Source: Liolophura sinensis
Lineage: Eukaryota; Mollusca; Polyplacophora; Chitonida; Chitonidae
Reading direction: 5' to 3'
Assembly: GCF_032854445.1 (NCBI RefSeq)
Contig: NC_088304.1
Location: 24,473,513 to 24,537,512 of the forward strand
DNA length: 64,000 nucleotides
Shown here: positions 36,482 through 64,000 of the stretch, in pieces
Layout of the letters: each line of letters opens with the position of its first letter
How positions within the stretch are numbered: position 1 is the first letter of the stretch
The notes under the pieces: generated by a model
Seen by the model: only the letters and a program-made list of their open reading frames with translations
Told to the model about the DNA's origin: nothing
Databases searched by the model: none
Position numbers and translations under genes: made by a program

Positions 36482-36692
36482 GGCCTCCTCCATGGCTCAG
36501 TGGGTTAGCGCGCTAGCGCAGCGTAATGACCCAGGAGCCTCTCACCAAGGCGGTCGCTGTGAGTTCAAGTCTAGCTCATGCTGGCTTCCTCTCCGGCCGT
36601 ACGTGGGAAGGTCTGCCAGCAATCTGCGGATGGTCGTGGGTTTCCCCCGTGCTCTGCCTGGTTTCCACCCACCATAACGCTGGCCGCCGTTA
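36482..36692 (+). mobile_element. SINE-A copy (forward, tail replaced by minisatellite)
   Basis: GGCCTCCTCCATGGCTCAGT head with A box, GTGAGTTCAAGTCTAGCTCA B box, and body to ACGCTGGCCGCCGTTA. The sequence then passes straight into the 46-bp array, so the SINE tail is missing. Confidence 0.9.
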
Positions 36693-36699
36693 GTCATTT

Positions 36700-40244: not shown

Positions 40245-40836
40245 TGAATATGATAGCCGGCGTATGCTACGCATGCTACCTTACCAGTAGTCGCACCCAC
40301 GTATGCTACCTAACCAGTAGTCTCACTCACGTATGCTACCTAACCAGTAGTCCTCACCCACGTATGCTACCTTACCAGTAGCCTCACCCAAGTATGCCAC
40401 CTTACCAGTAGTCTCACCCACGTATGCTACCTTACCAGTAGTCTCACCCACGTACGCTACCTTACCAGTAGTCTCACCCACATACGCTACCTTACCAGTA
40501 GTCTCACCCACGTATGCTACCTAACCAGCTGTCTCACTCACGTATGCTACTTTACCAGTAGTCTCACTCACGTATGCTACCTAACCAGTAGTCTCACCCA
40601 CGTATGCTACCTAACCAGTAGTCTCACCCACGAATGCTACCTTACCAGTAGTCTCACCCACGTATGCTACCTTACCATTAGTCTCACCCACGTATGCTAC
40701 CTTGCCAGTAGTCTCACCCACGTATGCAACCTTACAGCAGTCTCATCCACGTATGCTACCTTACCAGCAGTCTCATCCACGTATGCTACCTTACCAGTAG
40801 TCTCATCCACGTATGATATCTTACCAGTAGTCTGAC
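40245..40836 (+). repeat. 30-bp minisatellite, about 19 units
   Basis: Unit CGTATGCTACCTTACCAGTA followed by GTCTCACCCA, exactly 30 bases, hence open in frame on the minus strand with a ten-residue period (GETTGKVAYV). Not a gene. Confidence 0.95.
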
Positions 40837-44387: not shown

Positions 44388-47135
44388 TCTTCTGGTATGT
44401 AAGGGAAACAGCGCATGTATGTCCTTATTTGATCTGTAATGCACTCGATGTACACTGAACATAGCTGGTTGGTCACGTCTAAGTCCATGTATCTGGTCTG
44501 TAAAAGCAGTCAGTATACACTGAACATAGCTGGTTGGTCACGTCTAAGTCCATGTATCTGGTCTGTAAAAGCAGTCAGTATACACTGAACATAGCTGGTT
44601 GGTCACGTCTAGGTCCATGTATCTGGTCTGTAAAAACAGTCAGCATACACTGAACATAGCTGGTTGGTCACGTCTAGGTCCATGTATCTGGTCTGTAAAA
44701 ACAGTCAGCATACACTGAACATAGCTGGTTGGCCATGTGTAAGTTCATTTATCTGGTCTGTAAAAGCAGTCAGTATACACTGAACATAGCTGGTTGGTCA
44801 CGTCTAAGTCCATGTATCTGGTCTGTAAAAGCAGTCAGTATACACTGAACATAGCTGGTTGGTCACGTCTAGGTCCATGTATCTGGTCTGTAAAAACAGT
44901 CAGTATACACTGAACATAGCTGGTTGGTCACGTCTAGGTCCATGTATCTGGTCTGTAAAAGCAGTCAGTATACACTGAACATAGCTGGTTGGTCACGTCT
45001 AGGTCCATGTATCTGGTCTGTAAAAACAGTCAGTATACACTGAACATAGCTGGTTGGCCATGTGTAAGTTCATTTATCTGGTCTGTAAAAGCAGTCAGTA
45101 TACACTGAACATAGCTGGTTGGTCACGTCTAAGTCCATGTATCTGGTCTGTAAAAGCAGTCAGTATACACTGAACATTGCTGGTTGGTCATGTGTAAGTT
45201 CATTTATCTGGTCTGTAAAAGCAGTCAGTATACACTGAACATAGCTGGTTGGTCACGTCTAGGTCCATGTATCTGGTCTGTAAAAGCAGTCAGTATACAC
45301 TGAACATAGCTGGTTGGTCACGTCTAGGTCCATGTATCTGGTCTGTAAAAGCAGTCAGTATACACTGAACATAGCTTGTTGGTCACGTCTAGGTCCATCT
45401 ATCTGGTCTGTAAAAGCAGTCAGCATACACTGAACATAGCTGGTTGGTCACGTCTAGGTCCATGTATCTGGTCTGTAAAAGAAGTCAGTATACACTGAAC
45501 ATAGCTTGTTGGTCACGTCTAGGTCCATGTATCTGGTCTGTAAAAGCAGTCAGTATACACTGAACATAGCTGGTTGGTCACGTCTAGGTCCATCTATCTT
45601 GTCTGTAAAAGCAGTCAGTATACACTGAACATAGCTGGTTGGTCACGTCTAGGTCCATCTATCTGGTCTGTAAAAGCAGTCAGTATACACTGAACATAGC
45701 TGATTGGTCACGTCTAGGTCCATCTATCTGGTCTGTAAAAGCAGTCAGCATACACTGAACATAGCTGGTTGGTCACGTCTAGGTCCATGTATCTGGTCTG
45801 TAAAAGAAGTCAGTATACACTGAACACAGCTTGTTGGTCACGTCTAGGTCCATCTATCTGGTCTGTAAAAGAAGTCAGTATACACTGAACATAGCTGGTT
45901 GGTCACTTCTGGGTTCATTTATCTGGTCTGTAAAAGCAGTCAGTATACACTGAACATAGCTGGTTGGTCCACGTCTAGGTCCATGTATCTGGTCTGTAAA
46001 AACAGTCAGTATACACTGAACATAGCTGGTTGGTCACGTCTAGGTCCATGTATCTGGTCTGTAAAAGCAGTCAGTATACACTGAACATAGCTGGTTGGTC
46101 ACGTCTAGGTCCATGTATCTGGTCTGTAAAAACAGTCAGTATACACTGAACATAGCTGGTTGGCCATGTGTAAGTTCATTTATCTGGTCTGTAAAAGCAG
46201 TCAGTATACACTGAACATAGCTGGTTGGTCACGTCTAAGTCCATGTATCTGGTCTGTAAAAGCAGTCAGTATACACTGAACATTGCTGGTTGGTCATGTG
46301 TAAGTTCATTTATCTGATCTGTAAAAACAGTCAGTATACACTGAACATAGCTGGTTGGTCACGTCTAGGTCCATGTATCTGGTCTGTAAAAGCAGTCAGT
46401 ATACACTGAACATAGCTGGTTGGTCACGTCTAGGTCCATGTATCTGGTCTGTAAAAGCAGTCAGTATACACTGAACATAGTCTTCTGGTATGTAAGGGAA
46501 ACAGCGCATGTATGTCCTTATTTGATCTGTAATGCACTCGATGTACACTGAACATAGCTGGTTGGTCACGTCTAAGTCCATGTATCTCGTCTGTAAAAGC
46601 AGTCAGTATACACTGAACATAGCTGGTTGGTCACGTGTAGGTTCATCTATCTGGTCTGTAAAAGCAGTCAGTATACACTTAACATAGCTGGTTGGTCACG
46701 TCTAGGTTCATGTATCTGGTCTGTAAAAGCAGTCAGTATACACTGAACATAGCTGGTTGGTCACGTCTAGGTTCATCTATCTGGTCTGTAAAAGAAGTCA
46801 GCATACACTGAACATAGCTAGTTGGTCACGTGTAGGTTCATCTATCTGGTCTGTAAAAGCAGTCAGTATACACTGAACATAGCTGGTTGGTCACGTGTAG
46901 GTTCATCTATCTGGTCTGTAAAAGCAGTCAGTATACACTGAACATAGCTGGTTGGTCACGTGTAGGTCCATGTACCTGGCCGTAAAATCAGTCAGTATAC
47001 ACTGAATATAGCTGGTTGGTCACGTCTAGGTTCATCTATCTGGTCTGTAAAAGCAGTCAGTATACACTGAATATAGCTGGTTGGCCATGTCTAGGTTCAT
47101 CTATCTGGTCTGTAAAAGCAGTCAGTATACACTGT
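44388..47135 (+). repeat. 65-bp minisatellite, about 41 units, with a recopied flank
   Basis: Unit GCTGGTTGGTCACGTCTAGG followed by TCCATGTATCTGGTCTGTAA, AAGCAGTCAGTATACACTGA and ACATA (65 bases). A minor variant (GGCCATGTGTAAGTTCATTT) is spread through it. The edge sequence TCTTCTGGTATGTAAGGGAA at 44,388 recurs inside the array at 46,481, a 2,093-base offset. Confidence 0.95.
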
Positions 47136-47594: not shown

Positions 47595-49121
47595 TTTTAA
47601 TTAGAAAACTAAACCTTAATGAAATGGGGGAGAAAGGAAAACATGAGGTAATTAAAGCAGATAATAATCGTTCTAGGAGTGGGGTGCCGACTTCCAGCTC
47701 TTACGATTAAGAAGAAACATCTATTGTAAACAGAAATGACTGTCTAAAATACCAGACACGAAATAAGTCGTCCATTTACCCACTTCTAGCACATTATATT
47801 ATATTGCTTAATAAAGCAAAACAAAGCGTATATAAAGTCACTGCAATGTGGGAGATAAAGATGACAATCTAGCAACTAAACTAATAGTGAGAAAAGGCAA
47901 GAAAAAATCTTGGATGTCTCCAGGCATGTCTGAATGAATATTAGATTCATAAATGTTTCTATTCAATTTGGCATGTCCCACTGCTGCCACCAAGATTTTG
48001 TGCAAAGCAAATGTGACAAATATGTGTAAGAGATGAAAAGAATTAAGTTAATACATACTACAACCAGGTGCTATACATATTGCGAGGAGAACACGAGTAC
48101 TTAAAGCCTATCGCTTATCACTATCGCCTATGCCGAGTAGAGTTCAAGAAAAACGGTTTTCCTGATCAGATAGAAAGAGTGTACATATTCTACAACTTTG
48201 CAATTTGCCAGATCAGTTATTTTGTCTAGACAGTTAACGTTTCCAAATAAAAGTTTTAATATTTTAATACACCTTTTTGCTACAACCTACAAAATGCATA
48301 CCGCGCAGAATCTTCAATACTACTCTAAGCTGTCGTATTCTAAATCTACGAACCTATGTGATAGTATGCAAGCATGCAAAGCGATATTGGTCAAAAGCAC
48401 TGTGGAGAAGATATATATCTAATACAAAAAAAGCAAATTTGAGCAGATTTATATGAAAGCCAAAGAACAAATAATGTTGTAGACTTTCCCTATCAAGCAA
48501 TGTTAGATCACTTTCACGTTTGGTACTCTTCTTTACATATACGACGTCGGTCAGTTTAAAGGGTGGAGAAAACGGGAGGAACCGGAGAAAACCGGAGAAA
48601 ACCGGAGGAACCCGAATACATGGACCAACTTTGCTAGGTGTTACTCACCCAAACAAAGTACTCGAGGTGAATACCAGATCGTTGGGAGGCAAATGATCTC
48701 ACAACAAAAAAAAACTAGCTTTAACTCGATAGTTTAAATTACACAGGATCCTCAGCATGGAATAACAACAGTTACAGAACGATTAATTCTACATATACAA
48801 CAAATGGTCTATGTGCAAAACGTTTAAATTTATCAAAATTGTTCTTTTTCAAATAAAACGACAATTATGTGCTTCTACAAACATTAGCGGGTGTTAGAAC
48901 AGAAAATTGATCAAACATCAGTTTTTGATCAAGATCTGCCGAGGCTGTCAACTACGTGCTACTGTGAATTTGTGAATCAGTGAATTTAAATGCAAATATA
49001 CCCATAAAATCTAGCCTTTAAAATTTAGCGAGGTTAATTAAAGCCAGGTTTGTAATTGCAGACAAAAGCATTCACTAATTCTTCTTGCGGGCACTCAGAT
49101 TTAACAAATCTGCTTGTTCAC

Positions 49122-49171
49122 CTCAATGGCAACCTCAGCTTCATAGTCAGTATTGTAGGTCACATATTCCT
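49122..49171 (-). CDS. Receptor exon: short tail segment, with possible alternative C-terminus
   Basis: Acceptor TTATCTAG|AGGAAT (phase 1), codes EEYVTYNTDYEAEVAIE, then donor GAG|GTGAAC (phase 0) into the last exon. If that donor is not used, the frame continues VNKQIC and stops at 49,101-49,103, giving a shorter tail. The tyrosines (YVTYNTDY) lie in a cytosolic region. Confidence 0.6.
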
Positions 49172-50189
49172 CTAGATAAAAAGAAATGAACACAAAACTC
49201 TCACATTTCCATATGTAAAATCACATAAGATATCGACATACATTATCAAGCACGAGAGGTTTCGCTACAAAAATAAAACTAAGATCAGCGAAGAAACATG
49301 TGTGGTAAGTTCTGCATTCCTAACTGCAGTCTTGACAACAGAAATCAGCTGACAGCTGTATGACTATGGCGTTATTAAATCGCTGGCAAAGCAGGCGTAA
49401 TATGAATTACGAATCAGACAAGAAATTATCAAGTCGTGCCTTAGTCTGGTACACAAAACAGTAACGTGTGTAAGGCTGATACAGTAACGATGTGCGAGAT
49501 GAGACAGAGCAGCAGAACAGCAACAATTATGAAAATGACAACCCACATGTTTGGAGCAGGTTTTCTAGGTTCAATTCAGATTCGAAGTTACATACGAATG
49601 TACCAATTCTGACATTGTTAAAGATGCTTATTTTAACTTAATTTTGCTACAAAATTATCTCAACTCGAACCATGCGAATGCTAGAAATTAAATGGCAGAC
49701 TGCATTTCCTGAGTTTATGTTAGCTAGTGATTTCGACAAAACGTTCGATGTGAATAAGTTTCACACAATTGTTGTTGAAAACGACCAATCATATTTTGTC
49801 CTAAATATGTACGTCAGTAATTATGGTAAATTCTAATATGTCGTTCATATTCATTGAAGGTTTTTTATTTGAAGGTAGAATTAACTTCATGAATTTAGTT
49901 CATCGTGCTTTCGTGCTTATCAAATTCATATCTGTGTATCTTGTAACGACCAAGGTGTGGTACACTGTAATATACAAACTTATGGAAACTTATTCCATTC
50001 CTAAGCTTGAAGGGCTCCGAAAGCCTAGACATTTCAATAATAATGTACAATGCTATATTACGCTTAGCAAAACCACTACACTGTAAGATATTTGAACACA
50101 AATCTGTCTATCAGCGTGGATAGCCCTTTAACAGTTCCAAAAGTGAAATATGAATTTCAAAACGGCCTCTCTCTCAAATGAGAGCTTAC

Positions 50190-50585
50190 CTTGCTTATAG
50201 CTGGACTTTATCTCCACATGTGTGCTGGTTTCTACCTCATCTCCGCCAAGTCTGGCCACTGCCACATCTTGTCCCTCCATCGTGGGGGCCTCCGCTGCTA
50301 CAGCTGCGGACCCGCTGCTTTCAACGACGATTGGTGATGTAACCATATCCTCCTCTCCAATCAACATGGAGGCCGTCTGCTCACCGGTCTCCCTCTGCCT
50401 CAAGTCGGTGACATCCGTGTCGTGAACTGTATTGTCCGCTTCCGGAGCTCTCTTGAGCACCACCTGGCCATCCTGGGTGCTGTAAACGGCCGACTTGTCC
50501 GTCATGGAGTACATGCTCTTAGAGTTGTACTGGTAATCGTCAACATCGAAGGTGGTGTTGACGAATTCTGTGCTGTAGCCGTTTA
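50190..50585 (-). CDS. Receptor exon: cytosolic tail
   Basis: Acceptor TCATGTAG|TAAACG, donor AGCAAG|GTAAGC, phase 1 on both sides. Codes 132 residues rich in Thr, Ser, Val, Asp and Tyr (DVDDYQYNSKSMYSM; later SSGSAAVAAEAP). No catalytic domain; likely a signalling or trafficking tail. Its phase links it to the seven-helix exon and to the 49-kb exon. Confidence 0.75.
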
Positions 50586-51099
50586 CTACATGAAAATAAA
50601 GACTTGTGGATTTAGCAACATATACACAACGGCTTCTACAGGAAAAACAAATCAAATCGGTTACATTGAATATTATACATTGTCAAATATTTACAGAAAA
50701 AAACAAATGAAAACAGGATAAAGAATTTGTAATCTCCAAACGTCTTTTGTTTTAGCTAATACATAAAGCAAAGAAAAATTTTGAATGTAACTAAACTGTA
50801 AATCTTTCCCTGCAAGTCGTGAATCCGTCATTTTCGTTATATAAATCTACCAATGATGACCACCAGAGGCTTGTTATTTACCCCCAATGCATTAACAAGC
50901 CAATACGTATAAAAAATCAAAATGTATAAAACTAATGACGCATCAGCTAAACTTGTGAGTGCTTCAGAGATTCCGTGGAAGCGTTGGTAGCTGTGTACAC
51001 TAACAACACCGTTGCCTGAGGTGAAGGTGTTCCTCAGCTACAACTTCCATCATTCATCTCCAAATTACTGACACTGCGTAATCTTCAGTCGATACTCAC
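50586..51099 (-). other. Receptor intron between membrane domain and tail
   Basis: AT-rich, with no recognised repeat or RNA feature. Confidence 0.5.
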
Positions 51100-52138
51100 T
51101 CTTACTATCTTTTTCAGACATATCATCTTCACTTCCGTTTCGTAAAATTCGGAACAGGAGGAAAGTTTTCCTCAAAGGCAGGCAAATGAGGAGGAGCGTG
51201 GCGTTGACCCAGTTCCCCACGGCGACGGCAGCGTCTCTGTAAGGTACAGCCGCCATTGTCGACACGATCATCCAGACCATGAGGATACCAGCCGTTGAGA
51301 TGGACACTCCAAGGATCCAGCGAGACTCGTAATAGTTGTTTTGATTGAACCAAGCCAAAACTGCAAAGATGATTGTTAGGATAACTAGGATCATAACATA
51401 GATGAAGGACAAGACCAGCGCCAGATCGTAAAACGGAGGAGGTCCGCACCACCAATAATCATGAGGAATGACGCTGTCGCTGAGAAGGAAGGCTGCAGGT
51501 TCATCTACCGTAAGCCACATGATTGGTATTATCACTTGGATGAAAATTAGGAACAGGGCGATGAGAAGAAGACCAATGGCGCTTGTTATGCCTTTGTATT
51601 TCTTTGGTGCGGTATCAAATTCCCCATAACGCCAGTTGTCGGCAGCCTTGACCAGAAGGGCTGCAAAACATATGGCGTAGACGATGCCCATTACGAATCG
51701 TCGAGCTCCGCAGGTGACAACACTCGCCGGAAGGAAGAAAGCAAAGTTTATAGCGTAGATTCCTATGATACCGACGAGGAGCAAGAAGCCCAAAATTGTA
51801 GTGCCAGTCTTGATGGGATAGCAAGCAAGCAGTATCACAAACAGAAACAGGCAAACCAAAATTCCCAAGGATGTGAGAATTCCCAAAACAATTGCCCAAA
51901 TGGGCCAATCAAATCGTCTCCTGTACCCTACGGTCCCGTTGCTGTAGACGGTCGTCTCAATGTCATAGTAGTTTCTGGGAAGGTCGCCTAACCCTTCATA
52001 GCCACTGGCACCTGTCAAGGCTCCAGTTGTGGGACCAAATACGGTGCAAGAGCACTTATTCTTCAATAGACACACCGATCTTATGTCATCATAATGGGAC
52101 AGATCGCCCATCACCAGTGTTGACGTCCAATTCCCAAC
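51100..52138 (-). CDS. Receptor exon: class C seven-transmembrane domain (GPRC5/BOSS-like)
   Basis: Acceptor TTTTCAG|GTTGGG (phase 0), donor GTAAGA|GTGAGT (phase 1). 346 codons. Residues 1-77 are the junction and a short linker with three cysteines (VCLLKNKCSC) and no nine-cysteine domain. Helices: TM1 79-106, TM2 113-136, TM3 145-166, TM4 183-210, TM5 237-263, TM6 273-297, TM7 303-329. Cys143 before TM3 and Cys231 in loop 2 can form the conserved disulfide. TM3 CGARRFVMGIVYAICFAALL and TM4 QVIIPIMWL resemble GPRC5 and BOSS. Intracellular loops are short, as in that group. The start is a splice acceptor, not an ATG. Confidence 0.92.
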
Positions 52139-52246
52139 CTGAAAAAATCAAGAAGAAAACGTAAATGGTACATTTCATTCAGTTTGATATTTTGTCTGTA
52201 TCATTTGTCTCACTGCATGGCATTAATGCATTTGCTTGTCCCTCTG

Positions 52247-52455
52247 CATTATTTTAATGTTACTGTATGTTAAATGTGATACCAATGTACCATGTTGAGT
52301 AATTCTAGACCAGTGACCTCTGGTACATTGTAATTTAAGAATCACTACCATATAACAATCACTACATTTTTCACCTAATTATTTTTAAACTGTCATAAGG
52401 CCATATTTCACCAGTTATGTGTGACCAATTTGCCAGCTATCACGCGGTAAAATTC
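52247..52455 (+). mobile_element. Family D element, copy 3 (in receptor intron)
   Basis: TATGTTAAATGTGATACCAA, TTGAGTAATTCTAGACCAGT, CATAAGGCCATATTTCACCA and CCAGTTATGTGTGACCAATT align in order with copies 1 and 2. The 48-bp unit is missing or decayed. Confidence 0.55.
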
Positions 52456-52513
52456 CAATGAAATAAATAAAAAAAAACAGCAGCTAACATTTGTAAAATC
52501 GACTTTTACTCAC

Positions 52514-54046
52514 CTTCTGGTACTCAAGGCGTCCCATATCCCCATACTGCACGGAGTTAACTGTATACCCAGTGTTGCCGTAGCGCATTTTGTTGAAGGT
52601 AAAATTAAAGTTCTTCACAGAGTCCGTGTTAACTTTAGAGTCAACCGCGCTCCACATTAATCCGTGTGTTGTGGTAAAGATACGAGAGCGGAAGGCATAC
52701 CCACCAGCTCGCATACATTCCTCCAATGTAGCATTGATACATTCTTTTGCAGCATCACTTAGTCCCGCTGCAATGGAATATGTGGAGAGTATGGTGTGGA
52801 ACACGTTGGCGTCGTGGTGGATGGCCGTAGCATTCAATATCAGGTTTCCCTGGCATGGCAGTGGGTACTTATCACGTAGAGAGATTATGGTGCTGCCATC
52901 CGCCAGGTGGCACTTGTGGGCATGCTGGTACCACTCTTCATACCAATCTCTGGGGAGGAGTTTTTGGTCCCCTTTGTTCATGTTTTCGGCAAAGTACTCC
53001 TTGAACTTTTGAACCTGAGGCTTGATTTTTGTCAGAGTGATGGTTCCTTCCAGGAAAGTCTCTTGGTTGCGAAGGAGTTCAGCATCAACAGACCAGGCAT
53101 CGGTTCCGATCAGGATGAACTTCGTTGTTGGACGTGCAGATTTGATTGCTCTTATCATACGACTGGTTGCTTGTTTGGTTGTGAAGAGCACAACTGCTCG
53201 CGCGCCCTTCTTACCATTTTCATCAAGTTCCTGTACGACAGACTGGTAGATGTCTGCTGAAGCCTCTTCTGGGACCGATAATGAGAGACCCAAGCAAACT
53301 GGTGAGACTCCATCCACCGCAGCATACTTCCTAAACGTTGAATACAGGCTGGTGCCAAACCCATTATCAGTGTACACCACAGAGACGTAGTCCCATCCGT
53401 GTTTCCGGAGAATAGCCAAGATGGCCATGGCTTGTTCTGTGCTAGGTGGGCTGGCTCGCAAGAGATAATCATACCGCTCAGTATTCCGGAGTAACAATGA
53501 GCTAGCGTCTGGGCTGATCATACCGATGGCTAATGGGGACAAGACTCTGTTTGCTGCAAAAGTGTTGTCTTCGCCTAAAGTCAGAACGCCCGCTATGTTA
53601 GACATGCCAAGTTTCTGGGACAAGTCAGTGTCGGTGTGACATAGGCCCTTTCCCGATAAGAGTCCGTACAAGTCTGAGTCCACTCGGATGTTACTGGAGC
53701 AAGTATCTATCGCGAGACCATTGATTTTTACCTTAGAGCTAAACCCAGGCTGATTGTTGATCAGTTTTTCTATTGTGTAGAAGAACGCCATAATGTTATA
53801 GAACACGGTGTCATAGTTCATCTCTCCACAGAGGAACTCGTCGTAGGACCGGGATCTGTGAAGGTCAAAGACTCCAATTATTGTAGCCGTGATGACATCA
53901 TTGCCTGGCGGACCCTCCACGTACCTGGTGACAGAATCACGTAACCCCGGACATTCAGTGCACACACTTGGTCGGTCGCAACTGCCTTCCCAATCAGATT
54001 CGTACGTTTCCATTTCTAGCCCACTTTGGTTACTATAAGTTCCAAT
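52514..54046 (-). CDS. Receptor exon: Venus-flytrap domain D5 (next to the membrane)
   Basis: Acceptor TTTACAG|ATTGGA, donor CCAGAAG|GTGAGT, phase 0 on both sides. 511 codons, one uninterrupted exon. It begins IGTYSNQSGLE, the usual closing strand of the preceding VFT, then CDRPSVCTECPGL, then IIGVFDLH starts the lobe. GLAIDTCSS, GMISPDASSLLL, HGWDYVSVVYTDNGFG and RAVVLFTTKQAT match VFT landmarks. It ends MGRLEYQK, which continues VGNW in the membrane exon, as in class C receptors. Confidence 0.92.
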
Positions 54047-54963
54047 CTGTAAAAATCAGAAAGAAAAACATATGCCAGTTCAACTTTAAGCGATAGGATT
54101 GGTGGATATGATTAGTGTTTTAACATCGTGCACCAGAACTTTCCAGCTTGGGCTGCCGTCAGCTTTACGGGGAGGAAACTGGTTTCCGGAGTAATTTGCC
54201 AGGTGAACAAAACACCTGGCAACGTCGTGAACAAAATACCTGACAACGTCGTGAACAAAATACCTGACAACGTCGTGAACAAAACACCTGACAAACCTCT
54301 TAACATCAAGCCGCAGCCCACAATCTCAGAGATGGTATCATCGGCGATACAATGGTATCACCGGCGATACAAGCTATTACGACAAAAACTAGTGTGTCGA
54401 TTATTGACCCGGAACGTCCGTTTTGGTTGACGGCTGGTATACGAATGTCCACATCGACGCATATATTCTAGTATATCCATCAAAATAAAAAAAAAATCTC
54501 AACTTCCTTTTTTCTTTACATTTTACAATTTAACAAGGCCCGCCCTTTTCAAGAAGTAAATGTGAACGAATTTTCCAAAATCTGACGCTATTTGATGACT
54601 GTTTTATAACCTCTTATATACATCGGGTTGATTTACCAGGAAATTCTTTTCATTGTAAACCTTGGAACACCAGTTTTTGCAGTAATTCCACTTATGCTAG
54701 CTCATCACTACCTATGAACTAGCCTAGTACTATACTTGGATACTCAGTGAAATTATTCGCCTAGAACATGCCTTGTGTCTTCGGCCATCATCAATAAATT
54801 CTGACTGCTTTTTTTGTGCGTGAGTTCGTTCTACTTTCTAACTTGGGATGCTGAGATACGAATGTCTATATCGACATCTAGATTAGCAAATTTTAATGTC
54901 TTCTCCACATGTGATTCCACATAGGCAAAAAACATTTAACAGATTATCAAGATCTCCACTCAC
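54047..54963 (-). other. Receptor intron between D4 and D5
   Basis: Holds a 24-bp tandem repeat and a family C fragment (about 54,398-54,470, reverse: GACCCGGAACGTCCGTTTTG). No coding sequence is recognised. Confidence 0.6.
54205..54300 (+). repeat. 24-bp tandem repeat, about 4 units
   Basis: Unit GTGAACAAAATACCTGACAA followed by CGTC, four times, with CACCTGG and CACCTGA end variants. Confidence 0.9.
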
Positions 54964-56291
54964 CGAATTATAGACGTAACCATTTGAATTAGTTGTGGAT
55001 TCTTCGATACTGTACAGCGTGTAGCCTTTGTTTCCATCCCTACGGTTGGTAAATTCGAAATTAGCGCCAGTGTCGTCCTTGAAGCGAGCCATTTCGATTC
55101 CCTTGAATATGAGCTCATTTGTCGATGGAGAAGATCTGAATAGTTCGCAAACACCCGTGTAGTTGGACCCACAATGCTGTGTTAAGGCATAGTGTATTCC
55201 GTGGGCGGAGGCGTACACAGCGTTAACAACGTGCAGAACACCTGGGTCTTGTATGTATCTTGATGCACTCACAATTGAGCTGAACTCCGTCCCACAGGAC
55301 GGTTTGTTTCGGAAAAACTCCCCCAAAGGATTACGTAAATAGCAGTTACGGATTTCCTCGTAGTATTCATCAAACCATGGATTGTCTAGGTAGTTAGCAG
55401 GAGTTTTATCCTTTAAATAATCGTCAAAGGCTTTCATGTCTTTAGATTCCAGGTTAAGAGTGACAGCACCCAAAGTTGTTTCTACAACGGATGGATCCAT
55501 TTGGAAGTTTAGGGACCACATGATGGAGCCCACAAACCGGAATTTCTTGTTGGCTTGGACGTTTTTCTTCACGGCCATCAGAAACTCATTCAGGTACCCA
55601 GTATCTGCAAAGATAACTACAATGTTGGCCAGGGGTTTGTCCAGCATTGTGGTCACTGCATCACTAGCACTCTCTCTTGTAACGGTACCGTTGTCAGGAA
55701 ACACCACGCTCTGGGCGACGCAGATGCGGTGCCTTTCAGCTCTCTCAATGAACGCCTTCGATCCCAGTCTGCCGTAGTCGGTCGGCGAACTCAGGATCTG
55801 GACATAACGCATATTCTTCTTGTTGAGGAAAGCTAAAACGGCATCCGCCTGATGATCGTCTGAGGGAACAGTGCGGATAAAGAAAGGGTACCTATCTTTG
55901 TCACTGAGTTCAATGCTGGTGGCCCCGTAGCTAACCTGTGGTATTTCAAGAGAGCCTAAGATCCGGGCCAGGTATTTTGTGCGGTCACTTTCATAGGCTG
56001 CCACGTACGCCTTTATTTCAGACGGATCTACTTCATATCCATTTTTCTTCACAGAAAACATTCCGTTGTGAATATTGGACACTTGGTAACCTGTTCTGAC
56101 TGCACTTTCACAGGAGTCCATGCCGATTGCCCCTAAAGTAACTCCTTTCAGCTTGTCAGAAAATGACCCCATTTTATTGTTCACCCTATCAACGGCGAAT
56201 TGAAATGCCTCAAGAAGTTGGAATCCATGAAGAGTCTTCACTTTACCACACGTGAACGGGCTGATGGACCGAGTGTGTACGTCAAACATGC
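54964..56291 (-). CDS. Receptor exon: Venus-flytrap domain D4, main part
   Basis: Acceptor GTTGTAG|GCATG (phase 1), donor AATTCG|GTGAGT (phase 0). Joins the 57-kb exon as DIYLGG|MFDVH. SYGATSIELSDKDRYPFF and TDYGRLG are close to the amino-acid-binding pattern of glutamate-type VFTs (S..TS..LSD.. and DYG), the best preserved of the five. IGMDSCESA, VVIFADTGY and YSIEESTTN are further VFT landmarks. Confidence 0.92.
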
Positions 56292-56499
56292 CTACAACAC
56301 AAACCAAGAATTGCACGGTTTAACACTACTTAATAAGCGTTCTAGTGAAAACAAAAACTAAAGCAAAAAAAGCTAAACCAAAGAGATATCTAGTAACAGT
56401 CTTTGGTATTATAATACAGTGTACTTGTATATACACCCTGATACTGCGGGTGTATTAAAGTTTCCGAGGCCTGATCCCTTTGCAGTGTTCTCAAGTAAA

Positions 56500-56745
56500 T
56501 CTTTATTCAGTATGATGACCATATCATATTGAATAATTCTATACCAGTGACGTTTACCGGATTCTACTTAAGCAACGGTGCTCGAGTGAGTATAAGTTGC
56601 TATGTTTTAAGCACCTAAATGAACAGTTCGAATAAAACCCTGAAGAGTATTGACAAGAGGCAGTATTTCACGTATTACCTGCAATCATGTGCCAACCCTC
56701 ACGCTGCCGTCGCTATTCACGTTTCAGTTTTCATGCTGTAGTCTG
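56500..56745 (+). mobile_element. Family D element, copy 4 (in receptor intron, diverged)
   Basis: TTGAATAATTCTATACCAGT, TAAGCAACGGTGCTCGAGTG, GGCAGTATTTCACGTATTAC and CACGCTGCCGTCGCTATTCA follow the family D order, ending in one decayed 48-bp-type unit. Confidence 0.5.
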
Positions 56746-56982
56746 TTTTATTGGAAACATAAACATGGCGATGTGTCACCTAACACTGGCCAGCATGTAA
56801 GAATATCGTGACACGACTTTGTCGTTGGTGTTTCCCTCAACGTTTTTGTACAAATTCGATGCATAGTGCACAGGCGCAAAAACGGGCAAGATATTTATTG
56901 CTAGATTGAATACATATATAGCACAAACGCAAATTTATATTCAGTAATTATGATAGAGTGCTAAAATAATGCCAGCACTTAC

Positions 56983-57151
56983 CACCAAGATAGATATCCC
57001 CAGGGATGAAGGTAAAATTTAACGATTTCTCGATGCACCTTTCACAGGGACTGATACAGGTAGAGTTAATATTCGCAGCATTCTGCAACAGCGCCCTCTT
57101 CTGAGGACTGGAGTCCATCAAAGTTAGATAACCACTACTGAAAGATCCAAC
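56983..57151 (-). CDS. Receptor exon: start of Venus-flytrap domain D4
   Basis: Acceptor TTTACAG|GTTGGA (phase 0), donor TTGGTG|GTAAGT (phase 1). 56 codons: VGSFSSGYL closes D3, then the cysteine motif CISPCERC and DIYLGG, the first strand of D4. Confidence 0.85.
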
Positions 57152-57488
57152 CTGTAAAGAGTGAGAAAAAATGCTAACTATGTAAAAACTTCGTTGTCGC
57201 TGGGTAGTTCAAATATTGTAAATAATCCTTTGCAGCTTACCTGAAGATCATTTGCATACATTTTCAGAATTCACTTCATAAAGCATTCCAGCAAAGTTTA
57301 CTCTATTTACTATATTTTTACTATATTGTAGTCGTCTCGACTGCAGGCAATTTAGTTTGGATTTACTCTCTATGTTATAGTCTTTTAGACAATTTATTCC
57401 TGGCAATGTACTCACAAATACATTGGCTCTCCAAACTTCATGGTAACCGAACTAAGAGGACTTATCAGACGTGAGCAGATTGCTTTAC

Positions 57489-58856
57489 CTTTGTGTAATC
57501 ATTGCCAGACTTCTGAAGGACTTTCATGTTTCGAGGAGACATTCTGTTTTGAAATAATCTCTTCCCGTCGAAGGACACACTGTCAAGCTTCTGTAAAATT
57601 TTACTGTTTGTATCCATGGAGACCTCAAATTTGGAGCAAACCTCGTCATAGTTTACTCCACACATCTCCTGAAGGGTTCTGTGGATGGCATCTGCCAAAG
57701 CCTCAACGGCGTCGATTGTGGCTAGTACATTAGCATCTGTAGCAGAGCTGAGAATGGTACTTGTAACGGAGCCTGGACACGTGGCCTGGTAAGGACTATA
57801 AAAGGCACCCGGTAGTTTGCACTGGAACCGCTCCTGGAAGTACCTGATAAAGAAATGACCTCCCTGCGTAGCGAGGAAGTTGGAAAAATCTGGAATGGGA
57901 GGTTCTTCCAGTACCACGCTGATCTCGACTTGAGCAGCTGTAAGTTTCATGGGTTGGCTTGTTATAAAGAGGTATTTATTTGGATTCAAGGCTGATGCCA
58001 ACTTGTTTAGTTCTGCACTGTAGTAGCTATGCTCCGCAATTACAACAACAACATTCGTTTGTCCTTCTTTCAGGGAATTTAGGATATGGCTGTTGTTTCC
58101 ATAGCCCAGCTCATAAGTACTGACAACACAAATGCCTTCTGGTTTGGATACTTGTTCCAGTTCCTCCATCCCAGATTTCCCATAAGCTGTTGGAGAGTAG
58201 ACTAGCTGGATGTAAGAAAAACCCAGGGCCCTGACCACCTGTACCAATGCAGACACCATACTATCTATTCGAGGGACAGTCAAATACAGAGAAGGAAAGT
58301 CATTTCTGTCCCGAAGTTCGAGAGCAGAGGCAAAGGGGCTGATAACAGGTACTCCGAGATTTCCCAGGAATTTTCCACTCCCTATTGTGCTATCAGAGGA
58401 ATAGGTCAGCCAACCCCTGAAGTTGTCTAAGTCAATTCCGTCAGGTCGGAAAGTGTCAGTGTAAAGCCCTCCGAGGATGTTATGCGCCCTGTCAGCGCTA
58501 TCACAGTCATCTATGATTAAGGTGCCCAGACGAACGTTGTTCAACTTAACCCGGGACATATTAGAGTTGATCTGGTTGATGGCGTACTGGATGGCTGCTG
58601 CATACTGGAACCCATCTTCAGCCTTTGCCGTTTGGCACACAAACGGGTTAGTGTCTTTCTTGGACATTCCAACCAGCGCTCCAATCATTATGTCACCTCG
58701 TTTCATGATGTATGGCTGCTTTGCCACTAAGTAAGAGCATTGCTGGCAGAAACCTGTGCACCTGCTGGCCATGTTGTGGACAGATTGGTTGTTCGGGAAC
58801 ACAAGACTGTTCGAACCTAAAGACGTCACTCGATCAGCTGGATCATAACTGGCAAC
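57489..58856 (-). CDS. Receptor exon: Venus-flytrap domain D3
   Basis: Acceptor TTTACAG|GTTGCC, donor ACAAAG|GTAAAG, phase 0 on both sides, 456 codons in one exon. It has the CTGFCQQC motif near its start, then GDIMIGALV, IIDDCDSA, VISPFASALELRDRNDFP and FSYIQLVYSPTAYGKSG. The pocket differs from D4 (SPFAS for SYGAT, TAYG for TDYG), so a glutamate-like ligand is doubtful. Confidence 0.92.
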
Positions 58857-58899
58857 CTGTAAAAATAAAAAAAAAGAAACATGTCAGTCTGAAAGAAAA

Positions 58900-59056
58900 A
58901 TTTGATTGGTGTTTTACGCCGTACTCAAGAATATTTCACTTATACGAGGGCGGCCAGCACTGCGGTGGGAGAAAACCGGGCACAGTCAAAATCAAAATAC
59001 CGTTCCAAGGTCGCTGCAAGACCTTCCCATGTACAGCCGGAGAGGAAGCCAACATG
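58900..59056 (-). mobile_element. SINE-A fragment (reverse, in receptor intron)
   Basis: TTTGATTGGTGTTTTACGCC, ACTTATACGAGGGCGGCCAG, GCAAGACCTTCCCATGTACA and GGAGAGGAAGCCAACATGA, with a replaced middle part. Confidence 0.8.
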
Positions 59057-59201
59057 ATGAATGAAAAAGTATCTCACACATTAAGGAATACGGTTAATTT
59101 CCTTCAGCAGTCGTCGTCTTTTTTATAAGCACGTGAATATACCTCCATGCAGCTCAATCATCATGCTTTCAGTTTATCACATTAACCTTTAAAATACTCA
59201 C

Positions 59202-60626
59202 CGGAACAAACTTCTGTCCTTGCTTCGGCCTGTAGTTCAAAACTTGGTAGGTATAGGAGACCGGGGAAGTAGGTTTGATTGCCTTAATATTTTCCATTAT
59301 TCTTTGACGGGCATCTGGCAAGTCATAGAAAGCCGAACAGGGATTTTTGGAGGCACACACATCTTGCACGACTGCTGCAATGGCTTGAGCAACCATATCT
59401 ACAGCTTGGATCGTAAACTGTGCCGTGGTCTGGTGGACTCGGGTGAAAGCTTTAGGATTGTTGTTCAGCTTCTGGGTGCGGTCACATTCAGATGGATACC
59501 CCCTCATATACTGTGGATCCAAAGAGCACGAAAAGGCTTCTTCGTACAAGTTGGAATAAAACGGAACTCCTGTCGATCCTACATTCAAGCTTTGGAGATA
59601 CGATGTGAATCCTGCAAGTGGAGATGTTTGCAAAGAAAGGGTGAAACTACCGGTTGCCACATCATCCAGCTCAACAGGCAGTGGGGTTTCTCCCCATCCA
59701 GCACTAGCAAAGACAACAAAATCCCCTTCAGATCCAGTTCGTTGCATAGCTTCAAAAATCTCCCGGACATCAGAACCATACCCAAAGACAACAAGAGTCT
59801 TGGCAGATGGATTCTGTTGGATCATGTTCATTATGTCATCAGCATCGTTTTCTCTCCCAAGCTCATAAGATCCTGCAATGCAGAGAGAATGTGTGTCGGC
59901 GACCATCTTGAAGTCCATTTGTCCCTGGCGGCCGTACTCATCGGCACGGTACACAGTTTGTATGTAACTGAATCCTGCCAATGAGAGAAAATGCACCATA
60001 GCTCTTGCCTGTTCAGTGTCAGGGGGCACAGTACTCCTGTAAAAAGGAAATTCCATAGAGTCCTGTAGGTGGCTGACTGTAGCCATAGATCCTACATCTG
60101 GCACGTGTAGAGAATTTAAGGTTAATGCAACTGGAAATGCAGATTTGGACGAAGATCCATCAACATATCCAAGGACCCGTCCAGGGTTAATTCTTCTCCC
60201 CTTCTGATCCATTGCTGGATGTATGTTACTCATGAAACTGTTCAACACGCCCGCCACATATTCTCCCCGATTACAGGAGTCGATGAACAGCCCTTCGAGA
60301 TTTAGTTCCGGGTATTTCTGCTTAGCTCGATCAAGGGCGTAAAAGTATGGCAGTGCATGCATAGCGCCACTAACGTCAAATTGATCACAGGTGTAGCCCA
60401 ACGGGTCTGAGGTGTGAATGGAAAATATGCCTCCAATAAACAATCCACTGTTAGCCGGGTAGGTAGAGAAATGCACTCGTGATGGTGGTAGAGTACAGTA
60501 ACTGCAATTGTGTGAAGTGCATTCCGACGGAGGAATGGAGGCAAGGGGAGTAACTCTGTCCATGTCATACATTGTGACAGCCGCAGTGTTCAGACTTAAA
60601 CCAGAAGGACGAGTGTAGGAGCCAAT
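59202..60626 (-). CDS. Receptor exon: Venus-flytrap domain D2
   Basis: Acceptor CTTCAG|ATTGGC, donor GTTCCG|GTGAGT, phase 0 on both sides, 475 codons in one exon. IGSYTRPSG closes D1. Cysteine motif CTSHNCSYC, then GLFIGGIFSIH, LFIDSCNRG, SMATVSHLQDSMEFPF, FSYIQTVYRADEYGRQG and KTLVVFGYGSDV. The serine/threonine pair typical of amino-acid binding is only partly recognisable (TVS). Confidence 0.92.
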
Positions 60627-61774
60627 CTGAAGCAGAAAAAGAACTCTAGTTGATAATCACGAACATCTACAACTTTGCCGTCTTGCTAGCCTTTCTTCAA
60701 CCATCGCACCTTTTCTTTAAATAGTTACATTAGGTTTAGAAACAAGCATTATCTTGTGTATAATCATTGCAGGAAATCGTACAGACAGGATATAATACAG
60801 AAAATACCAGAAAGAAATATATTTACTGTAAGTTATGAAAGTTATACTTTCAAATCAGCGGATCTAATTTACACCTTTTCTGCTTTCATCTTTTCATCTT
60901 TCTTTGTCAATTAACAGAATATAATTAACACCTACATAATTAATACTTATTTATTTACTAGAGACGTTTAGTTAGCAGTTAGAAGTTAAAACTTGTAACT
61001 TGAAATTAGAGTAGATAACTAATTCTGATTTAAAGTTACAAGCTCGTACTTGGTCCCCAGCGGTCTCAAGTGTCTGTATTTTAGTATTATCCTGTTTTGC
61101 TCAGATGGAAGCGGGTTGTGTCCGTCAATCACTAGGCCTCACGGGGCGTGGGTTCAATACCGGACAAGCGGCTATTAAGATGCCTAAGATAAGCACCCGG
61201 CCAGTCTCCCTCGTGTGGTCTTACATGGAGCTCACTGGAGACCACTTGCCTTCCACCAATAATAACACGTTGAAACGCGTGCCACTATTACTTGCCAAAC
61301 AACAGTCGCTTACATCTGACACTCTGGTTTCCTCGATCTACAATACACTGGCCTCCATCATACATGGGAAAAACTTTTCAAAACAATTTGTTTTGCTAAA
61401 CTCCAAGTAATGAAATAAAAAAAATGGCCAATTTGGTTTCCTCTGGACGACTGTTGTTTAATGCCATACGTAAGAAAAAAGGAAGTAGCCAAATACTTGT
61501 AATGCCACCCAAGCTAGGTGTTCACCACCCAGCGACAACCCTCTCCGCTCTGGCAGACACCTAACTTTAGACACAAGTGAAGAAACGATAAATATTTATT
61601 TATTTATACATTTCATTGGCGTATTAAGCCGCACTTAAGAATATTTCGCTTACACGACTGCAAGCACCGTTATGATCCGAGAAAACCAGGCTGACCTATC
61701 AGGCTTCTGGCTGACCTCACTTTAACCACTGAGGAAGCCAGTATGAACTGAACTTAAAAAAAGATATGACTTAC
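60627..61774 (-). other. Receptor intron between D1 and D2
   Basis: AT-rich, with one SINE-A fragment near its right end. A 101-codon + strand open frame (61,105-61,410) lies here but has no recognised domain. The stretch GATGGAAGCGGGTTGTGTCC...GTGGGTTCAATACCGGACAA resembles a tRNA-derived retroposon head (B box GGGTTCAATACC). Confidence 0.5.
61593..61748 (-). mobile_element. SINE-A fragment (reverse, decayed)
   Basis: AAATATTTATTTATTTATAC, GCACTTAAGAATATTTCGCT and TTATGATCCGAGAAAACCAG, then GAGGAAGCCAGTATGAACTG directly before the D1 exon donor. Confidence 0.7.
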
Positions 61775-62653
61775 TGACTGAAATTGAAAACCAGTACCAG
61801 ATCTGTTGTTGAAGTTGTACACATCAAATCCAGCAAAAGTGGCCAAGTCCAAGTTATCGTCAAACAAAACACTTGTCCCCGACAAGCTAGGGAGATTTTC
61901 AGCAGCTGAGAAAGTAAAACCTGTTTTCATATAACCTAAGAATTCCGCTGGAGTCATCTGAGCAAAACTGGTGCAGAAGGTTTGCACAGACCCTAGACAT
62001 TTGTCATTCCTGGCACGGCGTAGGGCGTTGGCAAAAAGGTACACAGCTTTGATAACCTGCTCGACGGACTCATCCTGGGTAAACGCCGCCCTGCGTTCTG
62101 TTGATGTTGGTACAATGCAGGGGCTGTAACTCTGGACTAGTGGATTGGTTGCGTTGTTAAATTTGCACTTATTTGTGAACATATACCACTCCTGGAACCA
62201 GGGATTCTGAACCTGCGGGCTCTGTGGGTTTATGGAAGTGAAATAATCTGCAAATTCGGAGATGAACTTTGACTTTGTGGCCACAGACAAAGATCCTCGA
62301 AACAAGGGAGAATTGAAGGGTTTCGAAAACTTTGACCAAGGAAACACCCACTGCAGCCGGTTGACTCTGCTCTGATCTAACTTTCCTAGAGCTTGGAATA
62401 ATTCTGGAACGTTCATTTCCGATCCTGCGTAGACAACACCGATTACGTCATTCTCTATCACGGGCCGCAATCTGTCAGCCATGATGTTTACAGCTGTACC
62501 TGTATCTGGCATGGCAATTACATGTGGAACACAAATACCACGGCTGTAGGTCTCTCGCAGAACTAAGTCCTTCATGCTACGCCCGAAATTGTCATCAGTG
62601 AAAACCATACCAATGTAATTCCACTGTAGATTATCCAACAATATAGCTATGGC
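61775..62653 (-). CDS. Receptor exon: Venus-flytrap domain D1, second lobe
   Basis: Acceptor CTTTCAG|GCCATA, donor CAGTCA|GTAAGT, phase 0 on both sides, 293 codons. AIAILLDNLQWNYIGMVFTD followed by DNFGRS, then VIGVVYAGSEMNV and VNRLQWVFPWSKF, are VFT core strands. It ends FQFQS, joining IGSYTR in D2. Confidence 0.9.
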
Positions 62654-62943
62654 CTGAAAGACACAAAACAAAAACAACCTTTTGATATAACAATCTATGA
62701 TTCGAACATCAAAGATTGCTCGCTAAACATTTCATTTATTCACAAAATTAACATTCTACATTATTTAAATGGAGTTTAAAATATTGGACAACCAGACATT
62801 AAATGGGGTTTATGGGTCGAGGCCATGTCAACACATTAGTCAACGTGGGTTTTTTTTAATTCATTGCCACCTTCAGGCCTTAGAAGAGTGAGGTTGTTGG
62901 TTCTAATCCAAGTCTTCATTTCGCTGCTGCGACTTTTGTTCAT

Positions 62944-63060
62944 TTATTTATCCACTGGTGTTTTATGCCACACTCAAGAATATTTCATACAACAGCAGCA
63001 AGCATAAAGGTGGGAGAAAACCTTGAACTCACAGCAACCGCAATGGTGAGAGACTCCGCC
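62944..63060 (-). mobile_element. SINE-A fragment (reverse)
   Basis: TGGTGTTTTATGCCACACTC, AAGAATATTTCATACAACAG, AGGTGGGAGAAAACC and TTGAACTCACAGCAACCGCA (inverted B-box region). It ends close to the next exon. Confidence 0.75.
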
Positions 63061-63117
63061 TGTCATACCCTTTACCCACATCCCTGCCCTACCCCCGAGA
63101 CTGCACTACACACTCAC

Positions 63118-63284
63118 CTCAGCCACAGCCCTGGGTGGAGCATCTGTCCGCAGCAGGTTAGGGTAGTGGAACACATCGCTGAACTCTGACAGACGGGATG
63201 AATATGCCACCTGGGCGACATCAAAACCCTGAAGGAATGAAGCCACAGACTTGGTCACTTCACCAAAATGGCCTCCAATGATCC
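63118..63284 (-). CDS. Receptor exon: Venus-flytrap domain D1, first-lobe strand and hinge
   Basis: Acceptor TTGCAG|GGATCA (phase 1), donor GCTGAG|GTGAGT (phase 0). 56 codons: GIIGGHFGEVTKSVASFL, then VAQVAYSSRLSEFSD and LLRTDAPPRAVAE. It matches the signature VIG..SS.V...VA.LL and QVSY.S...LSD.. of class C VFTs. Confidence 0.9.
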
Positions 63285-63916
63285 CTGCAAAAACATATTG
63301 TACAAATTATTTAGCACATTTTGAAACCAACACAGATAATAAAATTCTACATATTTTTTTTTTATTTCTTTAAGTCAGTAAATGTAAAAAAAAGAGAGAA
63401 AAAAAGAACTTTTCTAATAAATCACATGCTTCAATGGCTCTGTACATCTTTTACAAAAAAAGTTACAAGAAAACAGGACATCCTAAGTTTTGGTGAAATT
63501 TTGCCCCACATCTCTTTTAAACATCCTTTTGACGACAATTTTTTTTGGGTGTTTTTTTTTTTTAAAGCAACACTTCCTAAAAGTGCATGGGTGCTTTCAT
63601 CATGCATTATTTTCAGAAAACACAATTTATAAGTCCATGCTTGTATTTATGATCAGCAATTGTTCCATTACAATGTAAAGTATCTGTAAATGCCACGAAT
63701 AAAATGTGACAACTACATTCACTGGTGGCAATGGTAAAACTTTGTTCTCAAAATACAAATTAGCGAAGTACTAAATATTTATCAGCGACATTTGTTCTTA
63801 TTTGGCTTTCTCACATTACAACAAGAATATATGGACTGCTCTTTACTTTAGGTTCTGCACTTTTCTTTCCTTTCCAAGATACATGTAACCATGACAACTG
63901 TGACAGTTATCCTTAC
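63285..63916 (-). other. Receptor intron within D1
   Basis: AT-rich with poly-T and poly-A runs. No repeat family or exon is recognised. Confidence 0.5.
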
Positions 63917-64000
63917 CTGGTACAAGTTTTGGTGGTGCTACAGCTACTGTACACTGTGATGATGAGGAGGTCAGGTGAGGCAGGAACTCAGACACAGCCC
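63917..64000 (-). CDS. Receptor exon (partial, continues past the window): Venus-flytrap domain D1
   Basis: Donor CCAG|GTAAGG in phase 1 at 63,916. The only open frame reads AVSEFLPHLTSSSSQCTVAV then APPKLVP and joins the next exon as PG|IIGG, the usual strand before the first VFT helix. The upstream acceptor lies outside the window. Confidence 0.75.

Follow-up and report, generated by a model that had tools for sequence, protein, structure and literature searches.

Class C GPCRs normally carry one Venus-flytrap (VFT) domain per protomer, and they are activated by closure of this domain within a dimer. Bacterial sensors of the EvgS/BvgS type carry two tandem VFTs. Venus kinase receptors combine a VFT module with a tyrosine kinase. 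For GABA-B receptors, PMC12716839 describes a VFT that joins the seven-helix domain (7TM) without an NCD3G domain, and for the metazoan glutamate-family ectodomains it describes VFT-NCD3G, VFT alone and Cache-EGF. Among the literature matches listed, none describes a class C GPCR family in which a 7TM is combined with several VFTs, and none describes a class C receptor with five.

The gene analyzed here, gene A of Liolophura sinensis, encodes a signal-peptide-like start (judged by eye) and then five mGluR-like VFT domains, which are followed by a class C domain of seven helices and, at the end, by a tail. It is located on the minus strand and consists of 13 coding exons that form a single frame of 2,925 amino acids (AA), and all of its 12 introns are GT-AG and phase-compatible. 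In the following, plain numbers are positions in the window, i.e. the whole stretch of 64,000 nucleotides that was analyzed, and numbers with the prefix C10 are contig positions.

C10:24540826-24541012, minus strand, outside the window: exon 1, signal-peptide-like start
C10:24538873-24538959, minus strand, outside the window: exon 2
63917..64000 in the window (whole exon C10:24537429-24537557), minus strand: exon 3, lobe 1 of VFT1
63118..63284, minus strand: exon 4, VFT1
61775..62653, minus strand: exon 5, rest of VFT1 (whole VFT1 at 109.4 bits to ANF_receptor)
59202..60626, minus strand: exon 6, linker CTSHNCSYC followed by VFT2, phase 0-0
57489..58856, minus strand: exon 7, linker CTGFCQQC followed by VFT3, phase 0-0
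56983..57151, minus strand: exon 8, linker CISPCERC ahead of VFT4
54964..56291, minus strand: exon 9 with VFT4, the most strongly conserved VFT, which matches the mGluR7 VFT with 171 bits
52514..54046, minus strand: exon 10, linker CDRPSVCTEC followed by VFT5, phase 0-0
51100..52138, minus strand: exon 11, linker CLLKNKCSC, stalk and seven-helix class C domain
50190..50585, minus strand: exon 12, cytoplasmic tail, placed by splice sites and open frame only
49100..49171, minus strand: exon 13, end of the tail and stop codon, placed by splice sites and open frame only

The original prediction was confirmed: the minus strand contains, in a single reading frame and with compatible phases, the five VFT units and the exon with the seven helices. 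Its 2,895 residues beginning before the window edge were right about the crossing of the edge, since the start codon lies 3.5 kb outside, and the total is corrected to 2,925. The rightward extension that had been proposed for counting the VFTs yielded the remaining exons of VFT1 and the signal-peptide-like start at C10:24537429-24541012. Past this start, the next VFT match (C10:24553718) is on the opposite strand. The count is therefore five; more than five VFTs are ruled out, and of the predicted "five or more" only the five stands. Between 49,100 and 64,000, the minus strand contains six open frames of at least 300 AA, the longest with 523 AA, and none of 100 simulations with a first-order Markov model gave a frame longer than 225 AA. 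For the tail exons 12 and 13, alignments with the paralogues B and C described below gave no usable support.

In gene A, the Pfam cut-offs of 25.4 bits for ANF_receptor (PF01094) and 33.5 bits for 7tm_3 are exceeded by each of the five VFTs, whose scores range from 96 to 157 bits, and by the 7TM. The largest exon of VFT1 alone reaches 48.4 bits, rising to the value listed above once the upstream exons are joined, and VFT2 to VFT5 score 108.3, 108.6, 156.6 and 96.4 bits, respectively; the 7tm_3 match has 97.1 bits. NCBIfam profiles searched against four of the exons gave nothing above the cut-off. The predicted model of VFT3, a divergent unit, shows a VFT fold (pLDDT 77) with mGluR5 and mGluR3 as the best Foldseek matches at E-values of about 1e-26. 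The model of the 7TM has low confidence (pLDDT 60) and shows seven long helices, again with mGluRs as the best Foldseek matches. The residues of motifs typical of class C, i.e. the pair of a TM3 lysine and an ICL3 glutamate and the disulfide between TM3 and ECL2, are kept in genes A, B and C. The PKxY of mGluR TM7 is not kept in any of the three; gene A has LRKxx in its place. The TM6 tryptophan is not aligned in gene A in one alignment, where a tryptophan follows three residues on, and this residue is aligned in another. With a seven-helix 7tm_3 domain, N-terminal VFTs and the TM3, ICL3 and ECL2 motifs, the predicted product would belong to class C.

Gene A has relatives in the same cluster, which are located as follows.

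C10:24576039-24592425: paralogue B, 39 % identical to A (1,047 of 2,697 aligned residues)
C10:24601458-24621926: paralogue C, 33 % identical to A (894 of 2,716 aligned residues)
C10:24553718-24565414: locus D, fragments of VFT and of 7TM distributed over several frames
C10:24642399-24646317: gene E, a single-VFT class C receptor

The neighbouring paralogues B and C each have five VFTs and a 7TM. Nine of their exons for VFT and 7TM were searched with Pfam and all scored above the cut-offs, ten of their 11 PF01094 matches are free of internal stops, and their start exons are also signal-peptide-like by eye. B shares intron phases and several exon lengths with A; the exon model of C is untidy at VFT3-VFT4 and VFT5-7TM, and the spliced aligner used for both models avoids stops by construction and splits some open exons with false micro-introns. 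The presence of the same array in both neighbours suggests a genuine receptor architecture that has been passed on by inheritance. Locus D may be a pseudogene or an intron-rich gene.

The history of the array was addressed with a VFT tree of 30 rows, in which VFT1 of C and the first VFT of each two-VFT protein of this genome were represented without their upstream exons. Supported clades were obtained for positions 1, 3, 4 and 5, each with the topology ((A,B),C), which is repeated in the 7TM tree. VFT2 of C falls outside VFT2 of A and B (92/90 for A and B), although a single VFT2 clade is not rejected (p-AU of 0.295), and VFT2 to VFT5 of all three genes may form one clade (62/86). These position-wise clades indicate that the array is older than the gene duplications. 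A single origin for the five VFTs of A, and thus a recent amplification inside this gene alone, is rejected with a p-AU of 8e-117. A collapsed or mis-assembled tandem array is ruled out by the low identity between the units (17-27 % in all ten pairs) and by their order, which is repeated in the paralogues. Together with the lack of an in-frame ATG upstream of the inner VFT exons, this upholds the prediction of one class C receptor gene model instead of a collapsed array. Gene A very likely encodes a single receptor polypeptide, for which the exons would have to be joined in one mRNA and the protein would have to reach the membrane, as we infer from the sequence.

Such a chain of five VFTs in three paralogues raises several questions: by which route the closure of a distant trap is passed to the helices, whether a single GPCR could sense more than one ligand, and for what reason a mollusc has such a receptor. 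The 12 matches listed, of 74, for literature on chitons and chemoreception contained nothing relevant. Ligand binding was assessed with the glutamate contacts of mGluR1, namely R78 for the side chain and S165, T188, D208, Y236 and D318 for the backbone. The contact residues were read from alignments of divergent loops, on which the ligand inferences rest, and by this reading VFT1 to VFT5 of gene A keep 0, 4, 2, 4 and 1 of the five backbone contacts, respectively. Across the three arrays, four of five are kept by gene A in VFT2 and VFT4, by gene B in VFT4 and by gene C in VFT2, VFT4 and VFT5; VFT1 of C keeps three, the other eight VFTs keep at most two, and none keeps all five. The side-chain arginine is absent in all 14 readable VFTs of the 15, the column being unreadable in VFT1 of C. 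Of the mGluR-like reference rows from this genome, m7 has the arginine and all five backbone contacts, and m12 has four contacts and no arginine; the contact residues therefore do not split the arrays sharply from mGluR-like receptors. The predicted reading of several ligands is thus only partly compatible with these residues, being favored by VFT2 and VFT4 and not by VFT1, VFT3 and VFT5. As also predicted, the array might bridge cells and, in this mollusc genome, might represent a spiralian innovation.

The favored explanation, which we consider fairly probable, is a multi-trap class C receptor: ligand would be bound by a few of its traps, and the others would bind something else or transmit. 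VFT4, and perhaps VFT2, would be functional and capture an amino acid or an amino-acid-like molecule, probably not glutamate, and the case for at least one trap of gene A binding an amino-acid-like ligand is evenly balanced. VFT1, VFT3 and VFT5, with most amino-acid contacts lost, could be traps for other ligands, spacers, or modules for dimerization or transmission. Trap closure would travel along the chain to VFT5 and from there through a short stalk to the helices, with no mGluR-type cysteine-rich domain, as in GABA-B receptors. The receptor is likely to signal through G proteins. More tentatively, the three genes may represent a polyvalent class C lineage, with five VFTs whose preservation as ligand traps differs between the paralogues and through which several ligands would be integrated by a single seven-helix domain. 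Two-VFT single-pass proteins that share the first VFT may act as partners in this.

Alternatively, the array of one transcript could mainly provide long reach, as a stalk of five globules for contact from cell to cell or to matrix, in which ligand binding is secondary. The few contacts kept in VFT1, VFT3 and VFT5 of A would fit this, and the two-VFT relatives, apparently single-pass proteins without a 7TM, could be the partners. Nevertheless, this is unlikely given the six VFTs with four backbone contacts and the conservation of VFT4, which is the highest of all VFTs with 50 % identity between A and B and would be needless for a spacer. Still less probable is that the array allows alternative receptors to be made, with a number of traps that varies from one to five. 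VFT2, VFT3 and VFT5 are single exons between phase 0 introns, and VFT4 with its linker exon is a 0-0 pair, so that these exons could be skipped in frame; however, exon duplication by itself also yields symmetric exons. That the array is a reading artefact of several adjacent genes, with soluble or single-VFT proteins beside a one-VFT receptor of VFT5 and 7TM, is very improbable despite the presence of E in the cluster and of AATAAA on the coding strand in three of the six introns from VFT1 to the 7TM exon, which may permit internal polyadenylation, because the inner VFT exons open at splice acceptors with a linker and, in contrast to the VFT exon of E, have no signal-peptide-like start, the introns between units measure 337-1,148 bp with two of only 337 and 345 bp, and two paralogues repeat the order.

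The putative multi-trap receptor can be compared with known systems. It resembles mGluRs in VFT sequence and fold, as seen for VFT4 and for the model of VFT3, in its 7TM, for which mGluR2 is the closest of the solved structures (43.5 bits), and in the class C motif residues shared by A, B and C. It differs in having five VFTs instead of one, in 7TMs that form a separate clade, and in lacking R78 in the 14 of 15 array VFTs with a filled column, a feature also seen in the mGluR-like m12. In place of NCD3G, a three-cysteine motif stands behind each VFT, and the 2,925 AA contain five matches to its pattern C-x(2-8)-C-x(1-2)-C, one after each VFT. An NCD3G profile search of the genome, which can miss weak matches, listed eight matches and none in the cluster at C10:24.52-24.65 Mb. 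A canonical mGluR is rejected on the absence of NCD3G and on the ligand residues. The transition from VFT to 7TM without NCD3G is shared with GABA-B receptors, from which the array differs by its five VFTs; none of the 55 solved sequences matching the 7TM exon of A (E-value up to 0.01) is a GABA-B chain, all being mGluR or CaSR.

Within the same genome, the 7TMs of the class C receptors E, L029, X and Y form a clade (97/97) next to that of A, B and C (97/95), and both together have a support of 100/100 in a 13-row tree with midpoint rooting only. E, X and Y differ from the arrays by the one VFT found for each in the stretches examined. In the two-VFT proteins (C7a, C7b, C7c, C3 and C4), the first VFT clusters with the VFT1 clade (98/96), and an intron at about profile position 198 and the three-cysteine linker are shared with the arrays. 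They differ in having two VFTs and, in four of five cases, a single hydrophobic helix in a downstream exon (none was found for C4), and no 7tm_3 match was detected at these five loci. Venus kinase receptors and EvgS/BvgS-type sensors share VFT-based sensing with the arrays, but are kinases and not GPCRs. A receptor with five VFTs would also enlarge the set of metazoan glutamate-family ectodomains as given in PMC12716839.

The minus-strand gene A is predicted to encode a class C receptor with five Venus-flytrap domains (VFTs; Pfam ANF_receptor, PF01094), numbered VFT1 to VFT5 from the N-terminus, and one seven-helix domain (7TM; 7tm_3). From exon 4 to the stop, it reads as a single frame of 2,790 aa with zero internal stops, and three extra exons past the window edge finish VFT1, with a start that by eye resembles a signal peptide (MKILLCLVVMMTTVHC). 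The complete model, which ends at window position 49100 and leaves out the exon proposed earlier near 44 kb, comprises 2,925 aa from 13 coding exons with the intron phases 1,1,1,0,0,0,0,1,0,0,1,1. Its open frames are far beyond chance, since the longest has 523 aa and 100 first-order simulations reached 225 aa at most. The model is least secure at its two tail exons. The original prediction of five VFTs and one 7TM is borne out and made exact, with 13 exons, one 2,925-aa frame and Pfam scores of 109.4, 108.3, 108.6, 156.6 and 96.4 bits for VFT1 to VFT5 and 97.1 bits for 7tm_3.

Among solved structures, mGluRs have the closest sequences to VFT3, VFT4, VFT5 and the 7TM exon, the four that were searched. 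The structure model of VFT3, a divergent unit, reached a pLDDT of 77.4 with a 15-sequence alignment and resembles the VFTs of mGluR5 and mGluR3 in structure comparison. The model of the 7TM exon is poor (pLDDT 60.2, five-sequence alignment) but still shows seven long helices and resembles mGluR helices. The mGluR cysteine-rich domain, NCD3G, was found by a profile search at eight sites genome-wide and at none inside the cluster of A. Its place behind each VFT of A is occupied by a linker that starts with [IV][GA]x[YWF] and contains C-x(2-8)-C-x(1-2)-C, a motif with five occurrences in the protein (residues 519, 991, 1446, 1936 and 2447). We infer that this three-cysteine linker is a shortened relative of NCD3G.

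The inner VFT exons of A open at splice acceptors that are not preceded by an in-frame ATG, unlike the single-VFT class C receptor gene E of the same genome, which has its start inside the VFT exon. The units are separated by introns of 1,148, 345, 337, 917 and 375 bp, and an intron of 691 bp lies within the unit of VFT4. Polyadenylation within the gene is possible, as AATAAA is present on the coding strand in the introns of 1,148, 337 and 691 bp. In addition, the phase 0-0 symmetry of whole units would allow in-frame exon skipping. The intron separating VFT4 and VFT5 carries a 24-bp repeat with 3.8 copies (window 54203-54294), and three minisatellites lie downstream of A:
window 44451-47134, minisatellite, 65 bp x 41 copies
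window 40269-40833, minisatellite, 30 bp x 19 copies
window 36691-39102, minisatellite, 46 bp x 52 copies

The genome of 609,464,459 bases in 632 contigs (GCA_032854445.1, named Liolophura japonica when published and L. sinensis after correction; PMC12441733 and the available part of PMC11068029) was searched with 7tm_3 and ANF_receptor, and a profile built from the five units was run against stretches fetched from it. The window spans C10:24473513-24537512 of this genome. Two additional five-VFT arrays, B and C, were found inside about 100 kb, with a further class C locus (L002-L003) between A and B:
C10:24553718-24565414, plus strand, L002-L003 locus
C10:24576039-24592425, minus strand, array B
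C10:24601458-24621926, plus strand, array C

In spliced alignments, whose aligner sidesteps stops by construction, 1,047 of 2,697 residues of B and 894 of 2,716 residues of C are identical to A; in the genome search, B and C gave 11 PF01094 matches, 10 of them stop-free. Per-unit identity to A, from VFT1 to VFT5 and then 7TM, is 0.36, 0.26, 0.35, 0.50, 0.38 and 0.51 for B, and 0.35, 0.25, 0.33, 0.37, 0.31 and 0.37 for C. From B and C, nine VFT and 7TM exons were submitted to Pfam, and all nine passed the cut-offs; VFT1 of both and VFT2 of C lay outside this set and were detected by the genome and five-unit profile searches. The L002-L003 locus shows pieces of two or more VFTs and of a 7TM spread over several frames, and may be either a pseudogene or an intron-rich gene.

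Five loci (L011-L017) encode two VFTs:
C7:41603384-41611196, two-VFT locus
C7:53450312-53456566, two-VFT locus
C7:58880207-58889253, two-VFT locus
C3:12429335-12435020, two-VFT locus
C4:10573100-10579145, two-VFT locus

Four of them have a downstream exon with the three-cysteine linker and one hydrophobic helix, and from their sequences these loci apparently encode single-pass receptors without a 7TM. In a tree built from 30 VFT rows, all from this genome, their first VFT joins the arrays' VFT1 (98/96); it is also interrupted near the same profile position as that VFT1, 198.

In the same tree, A, B and C form clades by position for VFT1 (98/94), VFT3 (100/99), VFT4 (97/94) and VFT5 (100/100), with the identical inner order ((A,B),C). 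For VFT2, A and B group together at 92/90 and C has no supported place; a single VFT2 clade was not rejected (p-AU 0.295). Grouping all five VFTs of A, or VFT2-5 of A, was rejected (p-AU 8e-117 and 2e-6). The order ((A,B),C) recurs at 97/95 in the 13-row 7TM tree, which has a midpoint root and one long branch (L028). There, the 7TMs of A, B and C adjoin those of E, L029, X and Y, receptors that lack NCD3G, jointly at 100/100 and apart from the mGluR-like rows. Among these neighbours are class C receptors at C10:24642399-24646504 (E), 4699201-4703702 and 4014067-4022780, in which a single VFT was found and NCD3G was unmatched. On this tree evidence, the position-wise clades and the shared order show the five-unit array to be older than both gene duplications, strictly for four of the five positions. 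An assembly artefact or separate genes would be hard to reconcile with this age.

Ligand columns were read for all array units and two mGluR-like VFTs of the same genome, m7 and m12, at positions that we take to follow mGluR1 residue numbering; these readings rest on aligned divergent loops. The glutamate side-chain arginine is missing in all 14 array VFTs with a filled column. Four of the five contacts to the amino-acid backbone are kept in VFT2 and VFT4 of A, in VFT4 of B, and in VFT2, VFT4 and VFT5 of C. The other VFTs of A have two (VFT3), one (VFT5) and none (VFT1), those of B have 0-2, and those of C have three (VFT1) and two (VFT3). All residues are present in m7. A sharp ligand reading is weakened because m12 likewise lacks the arginine and keeps 4/5 backbone residues. 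Which traps work may vary from paralogue to paralogue, and the membrane-adjoining VFT5, degenerate in A and B, may serve there as a transmission module.

Literature searches, which in the capped cases covered 30 of 48, 30 of 544 and 15 of 25 matches, listed no multi-VFT class C receptor, and the available portions of PMC4302439, PMC6307864, PMC9138782 and PMC6408891 do not mention a receptor of the five-VFT type. Since these searches lacked most subscription papers and animal protein databases were outside their scope, unnamed relatives may well exist in other molluscs. Judged from its sequence, A, whose mode of working is only proposed, is a class C GPCR with an architecture that appears new beside the metazoan architectures in the available part of PMC12716839, namely VFT-NCD3G, VFT alone and Cache-EGF.
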